A DNA stretch of 18,856 nucleotides from Oscillospiraceae bacterium (GTDB taxonomy: Bacteria; Bacillota_A; Clostridia; Oscillospirales; Ruminococcaceae): NCBI GenBank assembly GCA_017523995.1, contig JAFWUX010000056.1:1-18856 (forward strand), given 5' to 3'. Shown here in pieces: positions 1 through 18,033 of this stretch; within the stretch, counting starts at the first letter, position 1, and the number at the start of each line of letters is the position of its first letter. The notes under the pieces were generated by a model. The model worked only from the letters and a program-made list of their open reading frames with translations, was not told where the DNA came from and ran no database searches. The translations under genes and the position numbers were made by a program.

Positions 1-141
1 AAAAAGCTCGACCAAAACTTTTATTTTGACGCTCCGGCGGCGTAATGCGAATCCGGAATGCTTTAGCAATACGGAGCCGCGCACGGCGCGGTGAAAAAGC
101 TCGACCAAAACTTTTATTTTGACGCTCCTGCAGCGTAATGC
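1..141. repeat. Two direct copies of a 48-base intergenic repeat
   Basis: Positions 1-48 and 94-141 match at 46 of 48 bases (differences at offsets 36 and 39) with a 93-base period. The unit begins AAAAAGCTCGACC and ends GCTCC, a short GC-rich variable stretch, then CGTAATGC. Between the copies lies a perfect hairpin, CCGCGC (77-82) ACG GCGCGG (86-91). A third, more diverged copy lies at 4100-4142 beyond the radA 3' end in the same orientation, so this is a dispersed family. No gene is visible in positions 1-270. Confidence 0.85.
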
Positions 142-145
142 ATAA

Positions 146-173
146 CCGCTCCCGTTTACGAAAACAGGAGCGG
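146..173. other. Intergenic hairpin left of the pyk 3' end
   Basis: CCGCTCC (146-152) pairs with GGAGCGG (167-173). After a C/A mismatch the stem continues as GTTT (154-157) with AAAC (162-165) around a four-base loop. No clean T-run follows on either strand, although the plus side is moderately T-rich (CTTCGTTCTATTTC). It could be the terminator of a gene left of the window or another module of the repeat family here. Confidence 0.5.
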
Positions 174-197
174 CTTCGTTCTATTTCAGTATAAACA

Positions 198-252
198 TGG
201 GATTCCAAAGGGACAGTGTCCCTTTGGCGGGGTTTGGGGCAGCGCCCCATTA
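198..252 (-). terminator. Two-hairpin element at the pyk 3' end (candidate terminator and repeat unit)
   Basis: Read on the pyk strand, TGGGGC GCT GCCCCA (249-235) is followed by the 10-bp stem CCAAAGGGAC/GTCCCTTTGG (227-205, three-base loop), then AATCCCATGTTTAT. Its position about 20 bases past the pyk stop suits transcript termination, but the T-tract is short. The same layout, with different hairpin arms, follows radA at 4161-4231, so this is a repeat family as well as a possible terminator. Confidence 0.55.
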
Positions 253-270
253 TCAATCATCGCAGATGCC

Positions 271-3340: not shown

Positions 3341-3868
3341 TCAGTTTCCGCAGATGCGGCAGCCGCACCATGTCAGATAGGCGCCGTGCCGCTTGCAGCG
3401 CGGAAATCCGTTCAGCGCCGGATCGTCATCATCCATTTCGTCACACCAGTCCGCGAGCGCATCGGGGTTGATATCCGCCGCTTTGAGCCGGAAGAACCGC
3501 TTGCGGAACCACCCGAGCATCGGCATCAGGCGCTCCGCATTCGGGCGGAAATTCAGCGTATCCCAGCCGGTTTTCTGCGAGGCGGCGTCTGTCACGCGCA
3601 CCCAGAACTGACGGTCTGCCTCGAAGGATGCGGGGTCCCACGGCATATCGGCAATGCAGAAGCCGATGCTGCCCGTGCCGCGCGTTGCGTCATGCTCTGC
3701 CAGCCAGACTGCCATGCGCTTCTGCGAATCGGTCTCCGCGAGCGCTGAGGCTGCCAGCACTAAAATCTGAATGAGGACATCGGTGCCCTGATCGGAAATG
3801 CTGATCTGTTCTTCCGGCGGATCGCTGCGCCGGACGCTGAAAATATTTGCCATATGCTGCGTGTTCAC
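3341..3868 (-). CDS. Unrecognised 175-residue protein with a C-terminal Cys/His cluster
   Basis: Function unknown. The body holds Trp/Phe-rich segments (GWFRKRFFRL near the middle) and an acidic DWCDEMDDDD stretch. The last 18 residues carry Cys158, His161, Cys168, Cys170 and Cys173, a likely zinc-binding knuckle at the extreme C-terminus. The reading frame begins at a GTG (3868-3866) directly behind AAAGGAT, which is very close; an ATG at 3853 is the alternative, with that site rather far away. It is the first gene of the minus-strand group of four and lies next to the tandem-hairpin region. No convincing promoter was found upstream. Confidence 0.7.
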   Translation of the reverse strand: MNTQHMANIFSVRRSDPPEEQISISDQGTDVLIQILVLAASALAETDSQKRMAVWLAEHDATRGTGSIGFCIADMPWDPASFEADRQFWVRVTDAASQKTGWDTLNFRPNAERLMPMLGWFRKRFFRLKAADINPDALADWCDEMDDDDPALNGFPRCKRHGAYLTWCGCRICGN

Positions 3869-3920
3869 ATCCTTTTGATGATTTCAGAACGGACAAAAGC
3901 CTGATCTTGCATATCAATCT

Positions 3921-4109
3921 GTGAATTGCGCTGCAATTCACTTAGGGGAGCCCTCTATCGCAGGGCTCCCCTCTCCGAAAAACGATCCACCGGATCGTTT
4001 TATCGGATTCACCCCTGCGGAGCTCCTAAAGCAGGGGTATTTCGCACTCTGCGGAGTGCGACCAAAGGGCGCCGCCCTTTGGAAACCTGCGAGCTTTTGA
4101 AAAAGCTCG
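3921..4109. repeat. Train of seven consecutive hairpins
   Basis: Seven inverted repeats follow each other with almost no spacer. 3921-3941: 9-bp stem GTGAATTGC. 3944-3972: 11-bp stem AGGGGAGCCCT. 3975-4006: CCGA plus AAAACGATCC, 14 bp with one bulge. 4011-4038: 8-bp stem ACCCCTGC. 4042-4061: 8-bp stem TCGCACTC. 4062-4082: 9-bp stem CCAAAGGGC. 4090-4109: 9-bp arms CGAGCTTTT. All arms are perfect apart from the single bulge, and each hairpin has a different sequence. The region fills most of the gap between the start of the minus-strand four-gene group and the end of radA. I see no coding potential in it. Confidence 0.9.
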
Positions 4110-4142
4110 ACCAAAACTTTTATATTGGCGCTCCGGTAACGC
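4100..4142. repeat. Third copy of the AAAAAGCTCGACC repeat
   Basis: This stretch matches the repeats at 1-48 and 94-141 through AAAAAGCTCGACC and the following AAAACTTTTAT, with two substitutions before GCTCC, then diverges after the GG. As at pyk, it lies on the far side of the 3' hairpin element of a minus-strand gene (radA). Its first bases also form the right arm of the last hairpin in the 3921-4109 train, which links the two repeat types physically. Confidence 0.85.
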
Positions 4143-4160
4143 TTTTTATCCATACATAAA

Positions 4161-4231
4161 ATGGGGTCTGGGGATAATATCCCCAGCGGGGGATTGGGGC
4201 ACAGTTTGCGCAGCAACACTGTAAGCCCCCA
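4161..4231 (-). terminator. Two-hairpin element at the radA 3' end (candidate terminator and repeat unit)
   Basis: On the radA strand a long interrupted hairpin comes first: GGGGC/GCCCC (4225-4229 with 4196-4200), continuing with ACAGT/ACTGT and TTGC/GCAA. It is followed by the perfect 8-bp stem CTGGGGAT/ATCCCCAG (4186-4168), then ACCCCATTTTATG. The short T-run after the second hairpin fits an intrinsic terminator. The frame AATGGGG...GCCCCAA.CCCC...hairpin...CCCAT is shared with the pyk 3' end. Confidence 0.6.
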
Positions 4232-5635
4232 TTATGAATCCGTCGGAGACTCCTTTGATTCGAGTACCGAGAATGCCTCGCGCAGGCTGGAAACGCCGCG
4301 CAGCCGGATCGTGAACCGCTCGGTCTGCAAGGTGCGGAGCGTCTGCTTCGGCAGGATGCACTCCGTAAAGCCGAGCCGCTCTGCCTCCTGAATCCGCTGT
4401 GCCGCATTCGAGACCGACCGCAGCTCGCCGCCCAGACCGATCTCACCGAATGCGATGAAGGTCTCGGGGATGGGCTTGTTCATGATCGCGGAATACAGCG
4501 CGAGCGCGACGGCGAGGTCTCCGGCGGGTTCGTCGAGCCGGAATCCGCCGACAATGTTCAGATAGACATCGAGTGCCGCAACGCGCAGCCCGATGCGCTT
4601 TTCCAGCACCGCGAGCAGAATATACACGCGGTTGTAATCAAGCCCTGTTGCTGTGCGGCGCGGCGCCGAAAGTGTACTCTTTGTACAGAGCGCCTGAATC
4701 TCTGCGAGGATCGGGCGGCTGCCCTCCATCATGCAGCAGACGCATGTGCCGGAGACGCCGATCGGTCTGCCGTCAAGCAGCATTGCCGAGGGGTTCGCGA
4801 CTTCGGTCAGACCGGTATCGCGCATCTCAAAGACGCCGATCTCATTCGTCGAGCCGAAGCGGTTTTTGACCGCACGCAGCACGCGGATGCTCTGATAGCG
4901 GTCGCCCTCAAAGATCAGCACGGCATCGACCAGATGCTCCATGACCTTCGGACCGGCGATTGAGCCCTCCTTCGTCACATGCCCGACGAGAAAAACGGGG
5001 ATTTCCTTCGCTTTTGCCGTCTGCATGAACATCGCGGTGCATTCGCGCACCTGCACAACCGATCCGGCGCCGGAGCTTAAACCGGCAATATGCATGGTCT
5101 GGATCGAGTCGATGATGACGATATCCGGCTCGCTCTGCATGATCGTATCGCAGATGGATTCCGCGTCATTGACGGTCAGCAGATAGAGGTTTTCTGTGTT
5201 GACGCCGAGACGTCCGGCGCGCAGCTTGATCTGTCTTGCGGATTCCTCTCCCGAGACATAGAGCACGGAGTGATCTTCGCCGAGATACTGGCAGATTTGC
5301 AGCAGCAGCGTACTTTTACCGATGCCCGGTTCACCGCCGAGCAGCACCACGGAGCCCTTGACCAATCCGCCGCCGAGCACACGGTTCAGCTCCGGAATGC
5401 CCGTATCATAGCGGATATCCTCATTCAGGCTGACCTCGGCAAGCTCGCGAATCTGTCCGGAGACATCGGTCGGCGCGCTCCTGCTGACAGCGCTGCTGCC
5501 GCGCGCGGGGACGCGGATTTCCGGCAGGGCTTCTTCAATCGTGTTCCATGCGCCGCAGTTTGTGCATCTGCCGCTCCATTTGAGGTATTCGGCGCCGCAT
5601 GCGGTGCATTCGTATCTTGTTTTTGCTTTTGCCAT
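4232..5635 (-). CDS. radA: DNA repair protein RadA (Sms)
   Basis: Encodes a 467-residue RadA, a RecA-like ATPase that processes recombination intermediates and promotes branch migration. The four-cysteine zinc finger CTACG...CTNCG is at residues 10-27, Walker A GEPGIGKST at 101-109, the Walker B-like strand DIVIIDSIQT at 171-180 and the RadA-specific KNRFG at 257-261. The C-terminal third is the Lon-protease-like domain. Length is close to the usual 450-460. The ATG at 5635 begins MAKAKTRYEC, a typical RadA start. It lies 12 bases behind the stop of a 58-residue membrane protein and has only a weak ribosome binding site, suggesting translational coupling. The shared promoter is at 5867-5895. 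Confidence 0.98.
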   Translation of the reverse strand: MAKAKTRYECTACGAEYLKWSGRCTNCGAWNTIEEALPEIRVPARGSSAVSRSAPTDVSGQIRELAEVSLNEDIRYDTGIPELNRVLGGGLVKGSVVLLGGEPGIGKSTLLLQICQYLGEDHSVLYVSGEESARQIKLRAGRLGVNTENLYLLTVNDAESICDTIMQSEPDIVIIDSIQTMHIAGLSSGAGSVVQVRECTAMFMQTAKAKEIPVFLVGHVTKEGSIAGPKVMEHLVDAVLIFEGDRYQSIRVLRAVKNRFGSTNEIGVFEMRDTGLTEVANPSAMLLDGRPIGVSGTCVCCMMEGSRPILAEIQALCTKSTLSAPRRTATGLDYNRVYILLAVLEKRIGLRVAALDVYLNIVGGFRLDEPAGDLAVALALYSAIMNKPIPETFIAFGEIGLGGELRSVSNAAQRIQEAERLGFTECILPKQTLRTLQTERFTIRLRGVSSLREAFSVLESKESPTDS

Positions 5636-14444: not shown

Positions 14445-14517
14445 GAGAAATTAGCTCAGTTGGCAGAGCATCTCCCTTTTAAGGAGAGGGTCGAGGGTTC
14501 GAACCCCTCATTTCTCA
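14445..14517 (+). tRNA. tRNA-Lys(UUU)
   Basis: A 73-base tRNA with a full cloverleaf: acceptor GAGAAAT/ATTTCTC, D stem GCTC/GAGC, anticodon stem TCTCC/GGAGA with loop CTTTTAA giving anticodon TTT, five-base variable loop, T arm GAGGG TTCGAAC CCCTC, discriminator A. CCA is not encoded. The sequence turns AT-rich directly after it, and tRNA 3' ends are frequent integration sites. Confidence 0.97.
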
Positions 14518-14533
14518 CTCATGAATATTTCGT

Positions 14534-14574
14534 AAATACGCTGTTTTCCTGTATCGGGAGAACAGCGTATTTTA
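14534..14574 (+). terminator. Terminator of tRNA-Lys
   Basis: A perfect 12-bp stem, AAATACGCTGTT (14534-14545) with AACAGCGTATTT (14561-14572), can be extended inside the loop by CC/GG pairing. It is followed by a short TA-rich tail and lies 16 bases after the tRNA. Confidence 0.8.
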
Positions 14575-14587
14575 TTGCCAAAGGGGC

Positions 14588-14626
14588 TTTGGACACTATT
14601 TGGACACTACGGAGAAATTTGGACAC
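14588..14626 (+). repeat. Three copies of TTTGGACAC
   Basis: TTTGGACAC occurs at 14588-14596, 14599-14607 and 14618-14626, each continuing as TA or CA, in direct orientation at 11- and 19-base spacing, right after the tRNA terminator. Short iterated motifs beside a tRNA 3' end resemble integrase arm-binding sites, but no integrase gene is visible. The rest of the gap up to 14760 shows no gene or other clear structure. Confidence 0.7.
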
Positions 14627-14760
14627 CAAGCTGCGCGCTTTTTGAGCGAACAACGAGACGGATTTTCGGAGTTTTATGGAATTTCTTGCGAAAATGGCGT
14701 TTGTTGAAAACAGAGAATTTTGATGCAGATTTTTAGGTATAATGCTAATTTCAATATCAC

Positions 14761-14789
14761 TTGTTTTTGAATGCAAATTATGGTATAAT
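14761..14789 (+). promoter_or_regulatory. Promoter of the methyltransferase-nuclease operon
   Basis: TTGTTT (14761-14766) and an extended -10, TGGTATAAT (TATAAT at 14784-14789), are spaced by 17 bases. The predicted leader to the ATG at 14982 is about 185 bases and contains only a weak dyad, ATCTAT (14897-14902) with ATAGAT (14912-14917). No controller (C) protein gene is present. Confidence 0.75.
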
Positions 14790-14981
14790 AAAGCATAATG
14801 GGGTCGTAAGTAGAATTATCACAGCGTCAATTCCAGACCGCTTTTCTTATAATCGCAATAGCATTTCTGCCTACCTAAATGGTAGAGATGTCATGAATCT
14901 ATCTGTATTGAATAGATGAAATCTAATCAATAGGATATGCATTCTTTGCTCTATTCTAGATAGGAACGAGGCTATAGATTT

Positions 14982-16886
14982 ATGCGTTTCTTAGGCAATA
15001 AAGAATCCATATTGAACGATATCGAATCTCTTTTGAGAGACAAAGGTTTGCTTGATCAGCAGTTAGTTTTTTTTGATGCATTTACTGGGTCAGGATCTGT
15101 TGCGGATTTTTTTAAACGCTATTTCAGTCTGATTATCAATGACAACCTTACTTGGTCGGTCTTATATTCCCGAGGACGAATCTGTGCTCCAAAATGCAGA
15201 TTTGACAAACTGGGTTTTGACCCATTTGACTTTTTCAACAGTATTAACACTATTAAACAAGGGTTTATTTATAATACATATGCCCCTACCTCAACCAATA
15301 GAATGTATTTCACACCGGAGAATGCAGGGCGAATTGATTACTTTAGGTACCAGATAGAGCAATGGAAAGAACAAGGACTACTATCTTACAATGAGTATTG
15401 TTACTTAATGGCAAGTCTCATCGAATCAGTTTCAAGCGTATCAAATACAGCTGGCGTTTATGGTGCATTCCTGAAAAAATGGGATGCGAGGGCCTTGAAA
15501 CCAATTGAATTCATGAAAGTCCCCTCTGTTGATGGAGAAGTTCATGCTATATCACAATTCAACGATAAACTAGAGAACATCATTGAGAATGTGAATTGTG
15601 ACATTCTCTATCTCGATCCTCCTTATACACAGAATCAATATGGGACTCAATATCATTTACTTGAAACACTAGTCCTGAACGATAATCCTTCTGTAAGTCC
15701 TATAACGGGATCGCGCAGCACCACACCGATGCGTTCTGATTGGTCAAAGGAATACAAGGCGCATATTCTCTTTGAACGTATTGTTGCAAAGACAAAAGCA
15801 CGATACATCATCTTGAGCTATAATAATGATGGCTTTATGTCCAAGACATACATTGAATCAGTATTGAAGCGTTATGGTAAGGTTGAGACATATGCATGTC
15901 GGAAAATCTCCTATAAAAAATATCAAAACTGGAAATCTCAGAATGAGAAGCCGCATTTTGAGTATTTGTATTTTATAGAGAAAAAAGAGCCGGATCAAAT
16001 TGTATTCGAATCGCCATTGAACTATATAGGTAGTAAAGCTAAAGTTGTTTTAGATATAAAACAGAATATTCCAGGGGGATGCTCAACTTTCGTGGATGCA
16101 TTTGCAGGCGGATTCAATGTTGGTATCAATATCGGTTTTAATCGTATCATATTTAACGATATTAACCGATTTGTAATGGAGCTGGTAAGGTCGTTTTCTG
16201 AATTTGATACTTATCAATATCTTTTATATATTAGAAAGATTACCAATAGATTTGGGCTAGAAAAAGCAAATAGTGATGCATATATTGCGGCTCGAAACTA
16301 TTACAATTCATTGCCTGAAGATAAACGAGACCCTAGATTGTTGTTTACAATTATTCTATATGGTTTTCAGCAACAAATCCGATTCAACAGCAACCACGAA
16401 TTTAATAATCCAGTAGGAATGCGATGGTTTAATGATAAAGTTCTGGAGAAAATGATCTCGTTTTCTCGAGCTATTAAAGAAAGAAATATAGTGTTTATCT
16501 GTGAAAACTATACCGAACTAGAAAATAGTCTTAATGAAGAGTCATTCGTTTATATGGATCCTCCCTACATGCTTACTACAGGTTCATATAATGATGGCAA
16601 GAGAGGATTCAAAGGCTGGAATAGCACGTTAGAAAGTGAATTATTCCTGTTTGCCGATCGTCTTAATGATAGAAATATTCATTTTATGCTTTCGTACGTT
16701 ATTGAACACAAAGGAAAAACCAATGAAAAACTTCTTACTTGGGTCAAGAAGAATGGATACCGTATTATTGAATTAGGCGATATTATAGGCATTTCTGGTA
16801 GCAGAAGAAAAGAGGTGTTAATTGTAAATTATGGAACACAGAACAATACCACACTTTGTGGTGAAGAAGAATCTACAAAAATCTAG
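14982..16886 (+). CDS. Two-domain N6-adenine DNA methyltransferase (M.FokI-like fusion)
   Basis: A 634-residue protein with two complete D12-class (Dam-type) adenine methyltransferase domains in tandem, which move the SAM methyl group to adenine N6. Domain 1 (about 1-335): MRFLGNKESILNDI, SAM motif DAFTGSGS at 32-39, catalytic DPPY at 212-215. Domain 2 (about 345-620): LNYIGSKAKVVLDI, SAM motif DAFAGGFN at 372-379, DPPY at 526-529. Both catalytic tetrads are intact. The layout and length match M.FokI, whose two halves methylate the two strands of an asymmetric site, so a non-palindromic target is likely; the target itself cannot be read from sequence. The ribosome binding site (GGAACGAGG) is weak and somewhat distant. 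Codon use is AT-rich, unlike the genes to the left, which suggests horizontal transfer. The nuclease gene overlaps its 3' end by 56 bases. Confidence 0.92.
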   Translation: MRFLGNKESILNDIESLLRDKGLLDQQLVFFDAFTGSGSVADFFKRYFSLIINDNLTWSVLYSRGRICAPKCRFDKLGFDPFDFFNSINTIKQGFIYNTYAPTSTNRMYFTPENAGRIDYFRYQIEQWKEQGLLSYNEYCYLMASLIESVSSVSNTAGVYGAFLKKWDARALKPIEFMKVPSVDGEVHAISQFNDKLENIIENVNCDILYLDPPYTQNQYGTQYHLLETLVLNDNPSVSPITGSRSTTPMRSDWSKEYKAHILFERIVAKTKARYIILSYNNDGFMSKTYIESVLKRYGKVETYACRKISYKKYQNWKSQNEKPHFEYLYFIEKKEPDQIVFESPLNYIGSKAKVVLDIKQNIPGGCSTFVDAFAGGFNVGINIGFNRIIFNDINRFVMELVRSFSEFDTYQYLLYIRKITNRFGLEKANSDAYIAARNYYNSLPEDKRDPRLLFTIILYGFQQQIRFNSNHEFNNPVGMRWFNDKVLEKMISFSRAIKERNIVFICENYTELENSLNEESFVYMDPPYMLTTGSYNDGKRGFKGWNSTLESELFLFADRLNDRNIHFMLSYVIEHKGKTNEKLLTWVKKNGYRIIELGDIIGISGSRRKEVLIVNYGTQNNTTLCGEEESTKI

Positions 16887-18033
16887 GAACACTGGCATTT
16901 ACTTTAGTGATATCTTGAGCGATCCTGTTCTTAAAGATGTTTGCATTAGGATTACCGGTCTGGAACACTATACTGTCGATTTTGTGGAAAACGATTACGA
17001 AGATGAATTTCTTGAAAAGACTTATAATAAAGGAAGACTAGCAATTCTGCAATATCAGGACACGGCACATTATATTTCATTTTCTGAATCATCTGTAAAA
17101 GGTCGAAATTCCAGCGTTCAGAGTGTTCCAACAGCGTTCAATTTGTTTTTCAGCAATCCATATCCAAATAAGAAGCTTCATTTTTATTTTCTTAATGTGC
17201 AGGCAGGAAACCTCGAGACAGATTATCTTTTATTGATGTATAGGCTAATGAGTACTATCGGGTTTAACTTCCTGAATGCTGATGTTGCTCTCCGTCAAAG
17301 AATACTTGCTTTTTCTTCGATTGAGGACATTATTTTCAATCGGCGTAATAATTCTGAAAAAAACCAAAGTAACAACTCAACTTATATTACTAAAAGCGGA
17401 GTAGATACTATAGATATTTATGGAAAGGTTTATGGAGCAAATAAGTATGAATCCAGCATGATGTGTTATGCACTTTCTGTGTTGCATCATGAGAGCCAAG
17501 AAATAACTTTGTATGAAGTTATTGAAAAAGACCTAACAGAGCTTCCAGAGAGCAGCCGAAAGATTATTGATCAGATGGGTGTCATTCGAATAGTACCCAC
17601 AGATATGACATTAGAGAAAAAACTCTTCGAGGAAAATGATAGCTTACGTTCACCGCGATACATTTATAATCTCCTTGATCGTATAGGGCCGAAAAGATGC
17701 GTGCTTTGTGAATGTGGAATACCCGAATTAATACAAGGTGCCCATGTTTGGCCTGTTGCTCAAATCAAAAAAGAGGCTGGAATGCCATTTGATAAAAAAC
17801 TTGAGTGCGCAATAGACGGGAATAATGGATTATGGCTTTGCGAAAACCATCATAAGCTTTTTGATGAGAATATTATAAGAATAAAAGAAAACGGCATAAT
17901 TCATTACAAAGATGGCATCTTGCCTGAGCATTCTAGTTTTATTACTAAAATCACAACGATTCCAGAACTGCCAAAGAGTATTATGACTGATAAATTTTTA
18001 GAGTATCTATGGCGTAGAAATAGAGCAATTTGA
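16831..18033 (+). CDS. HNH endonuclease, probable restriction enzyme partner of the methyltransferase
   Basis: A 400-residue protein ending in an HNH nuclease domain. It has CVLC plus Cys295 (290-295), GAHVWP with His305, and DGNNGLWLCENHHKLFD at 329-345 with Asn332 and His340/341; these give the H-N-H metal site, with the cysteines possibly holding structural zinc. The first 270 residues match no family I recognise and probably recognise DNA; the IYGKVYGANKYES segment at 196-208 looks like a conserved core. The ATG at 16831 has AGAGGTG upstream and lies 56 bases before the methyltransferase stop, so translation is coupled, a common restriction-modification arrangement. HNH active sites are known in Type IIS enzymes such as Eco31I and MnlI. 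The gene is AT-rich like its partner. A repair or non-restriction nuclease is possible but less likely. Confidence 0.85.
   Translation: MEHRTIPHFVVKKNLQKSRNTGIYFSDILSDPVLKDVCIRITGLEHYTVDFVENDYEDEFLEKTYNKGRLAILQYQDTAHYISFSESSVKGRNSSVQSVPTAFNLFFSNPYPNKKLHFYFLNVQAGNLETDYLLLMYRLMSTIGFNFLNADVALRQRILAFSSIEDIIFNRRNNSEKNQSNNSTYITKSGVDTIDIYGKVYGANKYESSMMCYALSVLHHESQEITLYEVIEKDLTELPESSRKIIDQMGVIRIVPTDMTLEKKLFEENDSLRSPRYIYNLLDRIGPKRCVLCECGIPELIQGAHVWPVAQIKKEAGMPFDKKLECAIDGNNGLWLCENHHKLFDENIIRIKENGIIHYKDGILPEHSSFITKITTIPELPKSIMTDKFLEYLWRRNRAI

Follow-up and report, generated by a model that had tools for sequence, protein, structure and literature searches.

The palindrome block behind a radA-like gene in the window, by which we mean the whole 18,856-nt stretch of DNA analysed, is very probably the body of a single old copy of a MITE-like transposable element, small and non-autonomous, which is a palindrome mosaic comparable to BIMEs and is dispersed in Oscillospiraceae-type gut bacteria. 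The same ordered palindrome core, approximately 180 nt in length, occurs in dozens of intergenic copies per genome in some genomes, and some copies possess terminal inverted repeats and target duplications, with at least two kinds of end. Lacking intact ends, the window copy is a relic, and no target duplication was seen around it; hence, its membership is assigned from the core. By analogy, the element appears to work like a BIME and to move like a MITE. It contributes a large number of hairpins to the intergenic DNA of gut bacteria, and is unnamed in the open-licence literature searched.

An inverted-repeat search of the window showed positions 3921–4109 to be tiled by seven inverted repeats with 100% complementary arms, as the initial annotation had described. 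That annotation gave arms of 8–14 bp, of which the lower limit is right and the upper too generous, arms of 8–11 bp having been found (five palindromes of 9–11 bp and two of 8 bp); likewise, its interval of 3921–4109 covers the array, but misses a right-end remnant at approximately 3895–3920 and a 5′ part reaching to about 4135. The array sits 3′ of the stop codon of the radA-like gene, in the same direction, and ahead of a gene without a Pfam match (gene X). The features are as follows, with hairpins numbered P1–P7 in minus-strand order, and where R1 denotes a model built from an alignment of 25 cores.

4232–5635, minus strand: radA-like gene, with Pfam AAA_25, KaiC, LapB Zn ribbon and ChlI domains, a set from which we presume the name radA
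4110–4135, minus strand: 5′ part of the core, AATATAAAAGTTTTGG, with a variable upstream hairpin slot, from an alignment of 21 copies
3921–4119, minus strand: palindrome-array core, present in dispersed copies; R1 covers 3942–4119
4090–4109, minus strand: P1, 9-bp palindrome, with stem alleles CGAG, CAAA and CAAG among related copies
4062–4082, minus strand: P2, 10-bp palindrome, with alleles CCAAAGGGC, CCAGAGGC, CTTAGGGC and others
4042–4061, minus strand: P3, 8-bp palindrome with a conserved CGCA loop; its stem is the most variable of those compared
4011–4038, minus strand: P4, 8-bp stem, its loop with a conserved G-N-GCTC
3979–4001, minus strand: P5, 10-bp arms, AAAACGATCC/GGATCGTTTT, in an A-tract/stem/T-tract arrangement like that of a two-way terminator
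3944–3972, minus strand: P6, 11-bp palindrome with a conserved loop, TGCGATAGA here and TGCAAGAGA in other genomes
3921–3941, minus strand: P7, 9-bp palindrome GTGAATTGC, present in many, not all, copies and lying outside R1
3895–3920, minus strand: decayed right end, from alignment to the related locus L001
3341–3868, minus strand: gene X, downstream of the array, its start more likely at 3853
1–128, minus strand: 5′ parts of two further core copies, cut by the window edge, behind a gene at 271–1698 that by eye looks like pyruvate kinase

The minus strand of 3911–4119 folds to −111.1 kcal/mol, compared to −67.6 (sd 5.3) for 200 dinucleotide shuffles, none of which did as well (z −8.3), and 212 related copies average 4.3 stems of at least 7 bp each, compared to 0.26 when mononucleotide-shuffled. 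The hairpin array is therefore far beyond chance. The window matches R1 with 202.1 bits, being itself one of the 25 sequences from which R1 was built.

A scan with the RadA protein provided 52 loci for comparison. One of these, L001 (Clostridia MAG pig4.7; RadA 98%), the closest relative with a name, has an array at the same place behind radA, which lacks 45 and 12 nt inside the array relative to the window and has 41 nt extra downstream; L001 thus has the orthologous site, the two arrays differing in length internally. Within the 41 nt absent from the window, L001 keeps sequence that by eye resembles the IS4-like right end described below. In eight other loci (L005, L006, L010, L011, L013, L014, L016 and L025), only a short, array-free spacer separates radA from gene X behind it. 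When the 52 loci were searched with R1 (E 0.001), the core was found at the radA site in L001 only, and elsewhere in the locus in L005, L006, L013 and, weakly, L007.

Dispersed copies are numerous. BLAST of the array against the genome containing L001 (G001) returned 59 pieces, 16 of which span more than 170 of the 209 nt at 75–95% identity, and 17 of 148 genomes of the same family have a match at E 1e-10. With R1, matches were found in 50 of 295 genomes of the order (E 0.001) and 12 of 291 of the class (E 1e-4), G001 being included in both. A depth search of four genomes, with 150 candidates scored in each, gave 63 matches in G001, 92 in G149, 64 in G034 and 87 in G130 at E 0.01, weak matches included; such copy numbers are approximate, since many of the genomes are MAGs, which lose repeats. 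All named loci with a core come from MAGs titled Clostridia, Clostridiales or Oscillospiraceae at NCBI. A plasmid collection contained no match. A viral collection contained 12 exact matches of a 15-mer from the P6 loop (the surroundings of the matches lying outside the comparison), and one partial match (63 of 209 nt) lies in an unverified faecal phage scaffold.

The 212 copies used throughout comprise two sets of R1 matches. In the first, 108 of 151 matches were kept, after removal of 35 under 45 bits, the twice-fetched L173, L130 (twice), L144 (twice) and L143, the G001 copy at the radA site (L096) and L081:1356-1496 (49.6 bits); in the second, 104 of 105 were kept, L307 being cut at a contig end. 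The modular palindrome family proposed in the initial annotation is borne out; copies are many and pairing is conserved, the opposite of the two outcomes (no other copies, no conserved pairing) that it had set against itself. Its suggestion that the array grew by adding palindromic modules needs correction: growth hairpin by hairpin did not take place at this locus, where all seven hairpins in their order make up a single copy of a dispersed element, inside which modules vary and reassort. A CRISPR array, attC sites and a retron were dropped on sequence appearance, the copies being dispersed and palindromic. An additional palindrome (GGTTTGC/GCAAACC) is nested inside P3 in L157/L089 (G001:C137) and L086.

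The copies are intergenic, and their usual place is a gene 3′ end. Genes were called by codon score, longest-ORF calls having been dropped for doubtful orientations; 32 copies in close pairs were excluded, and 27 of the 180 remaining had no called gene on one or both sides. Among the other 153, 57 occupy convergent gaps, 16 divergent gaps and 80 tandem gaps, the core lying sense to the genes in 53 of the latter and antisense in 27 (binomial p 0.005). Element-free gaps of at least 80 bp at the same loci comprise 39 tandem, 10 divergent and 5 convergent, so that the convergent share is 57 of 153 for copies and 5 of 54 for element-free gaps (p 6e-5), while the depletion of divergent gaps is not significant (p 0.15). 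These p values are guides only, because copies within one genome are not independent. Only 3 of the 180 single copies overlap a gene by more than 60 nt.

This distribution is what would be expected of a block of terminators or insulators, whose hairpins stop transcription from both sides and which has spread by selection for transcript ends, and P5 lends that explanation further substance: its A-tract/stem/T-tract arrangement is found in 102 of 212 copies and in none of 212 shuffled copies. Against it, a consensus scan found no intrinsic terminator inside 3921–4109, the six other hairpins have, by eye, no T run behind them, and an ordinary terminator hairpin is already present, and doubled, where copies with IS1182-type ends sit (see below). 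We consider a dedicated terminator block possible but doubtful. For one hairpin, P5, a role as a transcription block, which the initial annotation had offered for the array, is possible judging by its sequence. Under the transposable element reading, the element may settle at the ends of genes, the sites of least harm, and may contribute to the termination or protection of transcripts; it would be tolerated at 3′ ends because genes remain uncut and because its hairpins, above all P5, would help transcripts to end.

Element ends are recognisable in subsets of copies and unrecognisable in most, including the window copy. The first type, CAATGCTAACAACTTAAG, has 20 matches in G001 at up to two mismatches (13 forward, 7 reverse), compared to three in G002, none in G004 and none in a backward control; with one mismatch, it is present in 6 of 396 genomes of the family. 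Three copies possess both type 1 ends at up to four mismatches per end, measuring 237, 270 and 273 bp, and two of them are flanked by 10-bp duplications (one exact, one mismatched at the last base), the third having none. An automatic end search yielded three clear cases among 108 copies, although one of three reshuffled controls also produced a top-scoring case. In PMC2266710, ends of the IS4 subgroup are given as -AATR--------WTW---- and target repeats as 10–13 bp; CAATGCTAACAACTTAAG fits this consensus by eye and the 10-bp duplications fit the repeat length. The copies resemble the MITEs and mobile insertion cassettes of the IS4 family in being short and gene-free and, in subsets, in having terminal inverted repeats and duplications of about 10 bp, but their body differs, being a conserved array of palindromes also found with unrelated ends. 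The IS4-family transposase domain PF01609 was found in none of four genomes (G001–G004), a weak observation given that MAGs lose multi-copy IS. Another genome, G025, has five core-less elements with IS4-like ends on both sides and 10-bp duplications, recognised by eye (L386, L389, L390, L391 and L393); these are approximately 95–117 bp long and partly N in the record.

The second type of end is shared with complete insertion sequences. Its left end, TCAGYCTGTCGAWAAA, occurs together with a recognisable right end in two whole IS (L265/L272 in G097 and L269/L273 in G029), both of which encode a transposase with DUF772 and DDE_Tnp_1_6, a set that we take to indicate the IS1182 type. Exact copies of a terminator-like hairpin, 30 nt in one case and 38 nt in the other, flank the two IS on both sides. 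All 14 left IS ends tested abut an inverted repeat, with a longest uninterrupted stem of 5–17 bp (at least 8 bp in 12 of 14); these ends were chosen by pattern, L268 falling outside it, and L264 and L265 share one flank. In the genome G406 the core stands behind the same left end: 17 elements were fetched and 15 scanned with R1, the short internal-deletion forms L282 and L289 being left out, and the core was found in 14 of the 15. By eye, L276 has part of the core, and in L277 the core is inverted within its ends. Seven of the 17 have a type 2 right end recognisable by pattern, and the flanking hairpin recurs on the right in 9 of 17, a candidate target duplication; redealing the right flanks 20 times gave a mean of 0.5 and a maximum of 2. 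The link to DUF772/DDE_Tnp_1_6 elements applies to G406-type copies only, and not to the window copy. The whole IS1182-type IS sit in genomes other than those of the carriers (G097 and G029), and among six carriers searched for PF13751 there was none in G406, G130, G006, G009 or G067 and a single piece with three stops in G001; this scarcity of transposases is a weak objection, because MAGs lose multi-copy IS.

According to PMC5678879, IS1272, a member of the IS1182 family, targets inverted repeats and replaces the target hairpin without duplication. The likeness therefore extends to the transposase domains and to inverted repeats as target; whereas IS1272 is reported to replace its hairpin, the hairpin here is found on both sides of two whole IS and nine of 17 G406 elements. 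The doubling of an adjacent terminator hairpin by IS1182-type elements is a clear, testable target rule. A third kind of end was recognised by eye in G067, G243 and G295, where a longer inverted repeat encloses paired cores in tail-to-tail orientation. In six loci of these genomes (L329, L332, L334, L335, L336 and L345) the two cores are different and approximately 470–550 nt apart, start to start. With several end types around the same core, it follows that the core rides in at least two, and probably three, chassis. DDE transposases supplied in trans would move such elements into gene 3′ ends and terminators.

RNAalifold on the 25 cores gave 47 pairs, of which 24 show changes on both sides, and 97.5% of cells are paired, so that the initial annotation was right to say that pairing is kept while sequence differs. 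The covariation score of 0.348 exceeds that of all 500 shuffles (0.156) and of slid alignments (at most 0.110). Taken with the conserved loops and the sense bias in tandem gaps, this makes the case for a functional structured RNA, either a 3′-UTR element or sRNA in many copies, whose stems are kept by RNA selection.

The manner of change points elsewhere. Rates were compared in 14 of the 25 alignment rows (from the window, G001, G002 and G004) for 56 unpaired columns and helices P1, P3, P5 and P6; neither P2 and P4 nor the variable linkers aligned cleanly, and these were left out. Among these 14 copies, pairs had changed on one side in 1.9% of comparisons and on both sides in 11.7%, compared to 6.2% for the alignable unpaired columns, a low estimate because variable linkers were left out; among the 43 closest copy pairs, the values are 1.5%, 10.6% and 2.7% respectively, both sides thus changing seven times as often as one. 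Two-sided changes number 390 (P3 247, P1 85, P6 58 and P5 none), although they are not independent events, because copies share ancestry. Stepwise compensation fits poorly, because one-sided states are too few.

Across the 212 copies there are 326 distinct stems, of which 269 are perfect and 57 have one mismatch. G-U does not significantly outnumber A-C among these mismatches (18 versus 14, p 0.60), and the 18 G-U compare with 3105 Watson-Crick pairs counted. Terminator-like hairpins at the same loci are less often perfect (56 of 95; p 6e-6) and have 19 G-U to 8 A-C (p 0.05), but the G-U/A-C ratio does not differ significantly between them and the array (p 0.38, computed on a smaller set), making this a weak test. 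Hence, the structured RNA raised in the initial annotation is not favoured by wobble counts, weakly as these discriminate, and the core inverted within its ends in L277 also speaks against it. Rfam has no match to the array: at gathering score only tRNA was found, elsewhere in the window, and the best weak match in the array region has E 0.44. This also agrees with the initial annotation, which could name no element of this form, and no description was found in the open-licence literature, a scope outside which most subscription journals lie. Overall, we regard a functional RNA as unlikely.

Hairpin alleles are also reassorted between copies. In the window and G001 copies, P2–P3 alleles form 15 combinations in 27 copies with 10 four-allele squares, P1–P2 alleles 9 combinations in 25 copies with 3 squares, and P3–P6 alleles 12 combinations in 19 copies with 4 squares. 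The allele calls were scripted, a few of them being apparent artefacts, and recurrent mutation may be the source of part of the reassortment. From these patterns we conclude that whole hairpins have probably been exchanged between copies and arms recopied. Template switching has been proposed as maker and keeper of perfect RNA-hairpin stems (PMC8794818); that proposal of arm recopying concerns RNA hairpins, and the scarce one-sided states and unfavoured G-U of the array would fit it. In the transposable element proposed here, palindromes would stay perfect and change in concert when one arm is recopied from the other by template switching, a process read from patterns, with no single events seen, and whole hairpins would be swapped between copies by gene conversion that spans the conserved linkers and loops. 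Stepwise coevolution of an RNA appears to explain the stem patterns less well than arm copying and the exchange of modules in DNA.

A broader proposal, which we advance tentatively and rate as somewhat less than probable, is that the core is a module of its own moving between unrelated chassis (IS4-like, IS1182-type and the third, long inverted-repeat type), that its stems, above all P3, outpace alignable loops and linkers by single-event recopying or exchange, and that the covariation reflects DNA mechanics. Functional RNAs are held to be best recognised by covariation, and the array shows near-perfect covariation with scarce one-sided intermediates and G-U unfavoured. If the proposal is true, the array offers a natural system for following the evolution of perfect hairpins, and cautions that RNA function does not have to lie behind covariation taken by itself.

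Among known repeats, pneumococcal BOX elements are also modular, intergenic, hairpin-forming mobile repeats. BIMEs and REPs, as portrayed in PMC2817692 and PMC1525189, are likewise many-copy mosaics of extragenic palindromes, and REPs are hot spots for IS insertion; the array differs in having approximately seven different palindromes in fixed order and DDE-type ends. A REP or BIME proper, moved by a RAYT transposase, would also be extragenic, palindromic, mosaic, abundant and found at 3′ ends, but is very improbable, because 7 of 11 carriers searched have no match to Y1_Tnp (PF01797), including G001 with its 63 core matches (3 of 11 exceed the cut-off), and the ends found belong to DDE-type elements. 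G149 contains five Y1-transposase-like matches (L374, L378–L381), three with an internal stop.

A second dispersed repeat, GGATTYATAATGGGGGC...GCCCCAA, adjoins the core, at window positions 4150–4253 (minus strand) and approximately 150–265 (minus strand), and also in L083, L086, L090 and L091, often with a palindrome of the CCAAAGGGAC/GTCCCTTTGG type; its window copy has a 21-nt stretch missing from L001. A palindrome at 4168–4186, outside the array block, lies within a dispersed repeat other than the core. Behind a tRNA gene, at 14445–18033, the window has matches to a D12-class adenine methylase (in two stretches) and to an HNH protein. As similarity to L001 ends at 14519, the segment has the look of a restriction-modification island inserted here.
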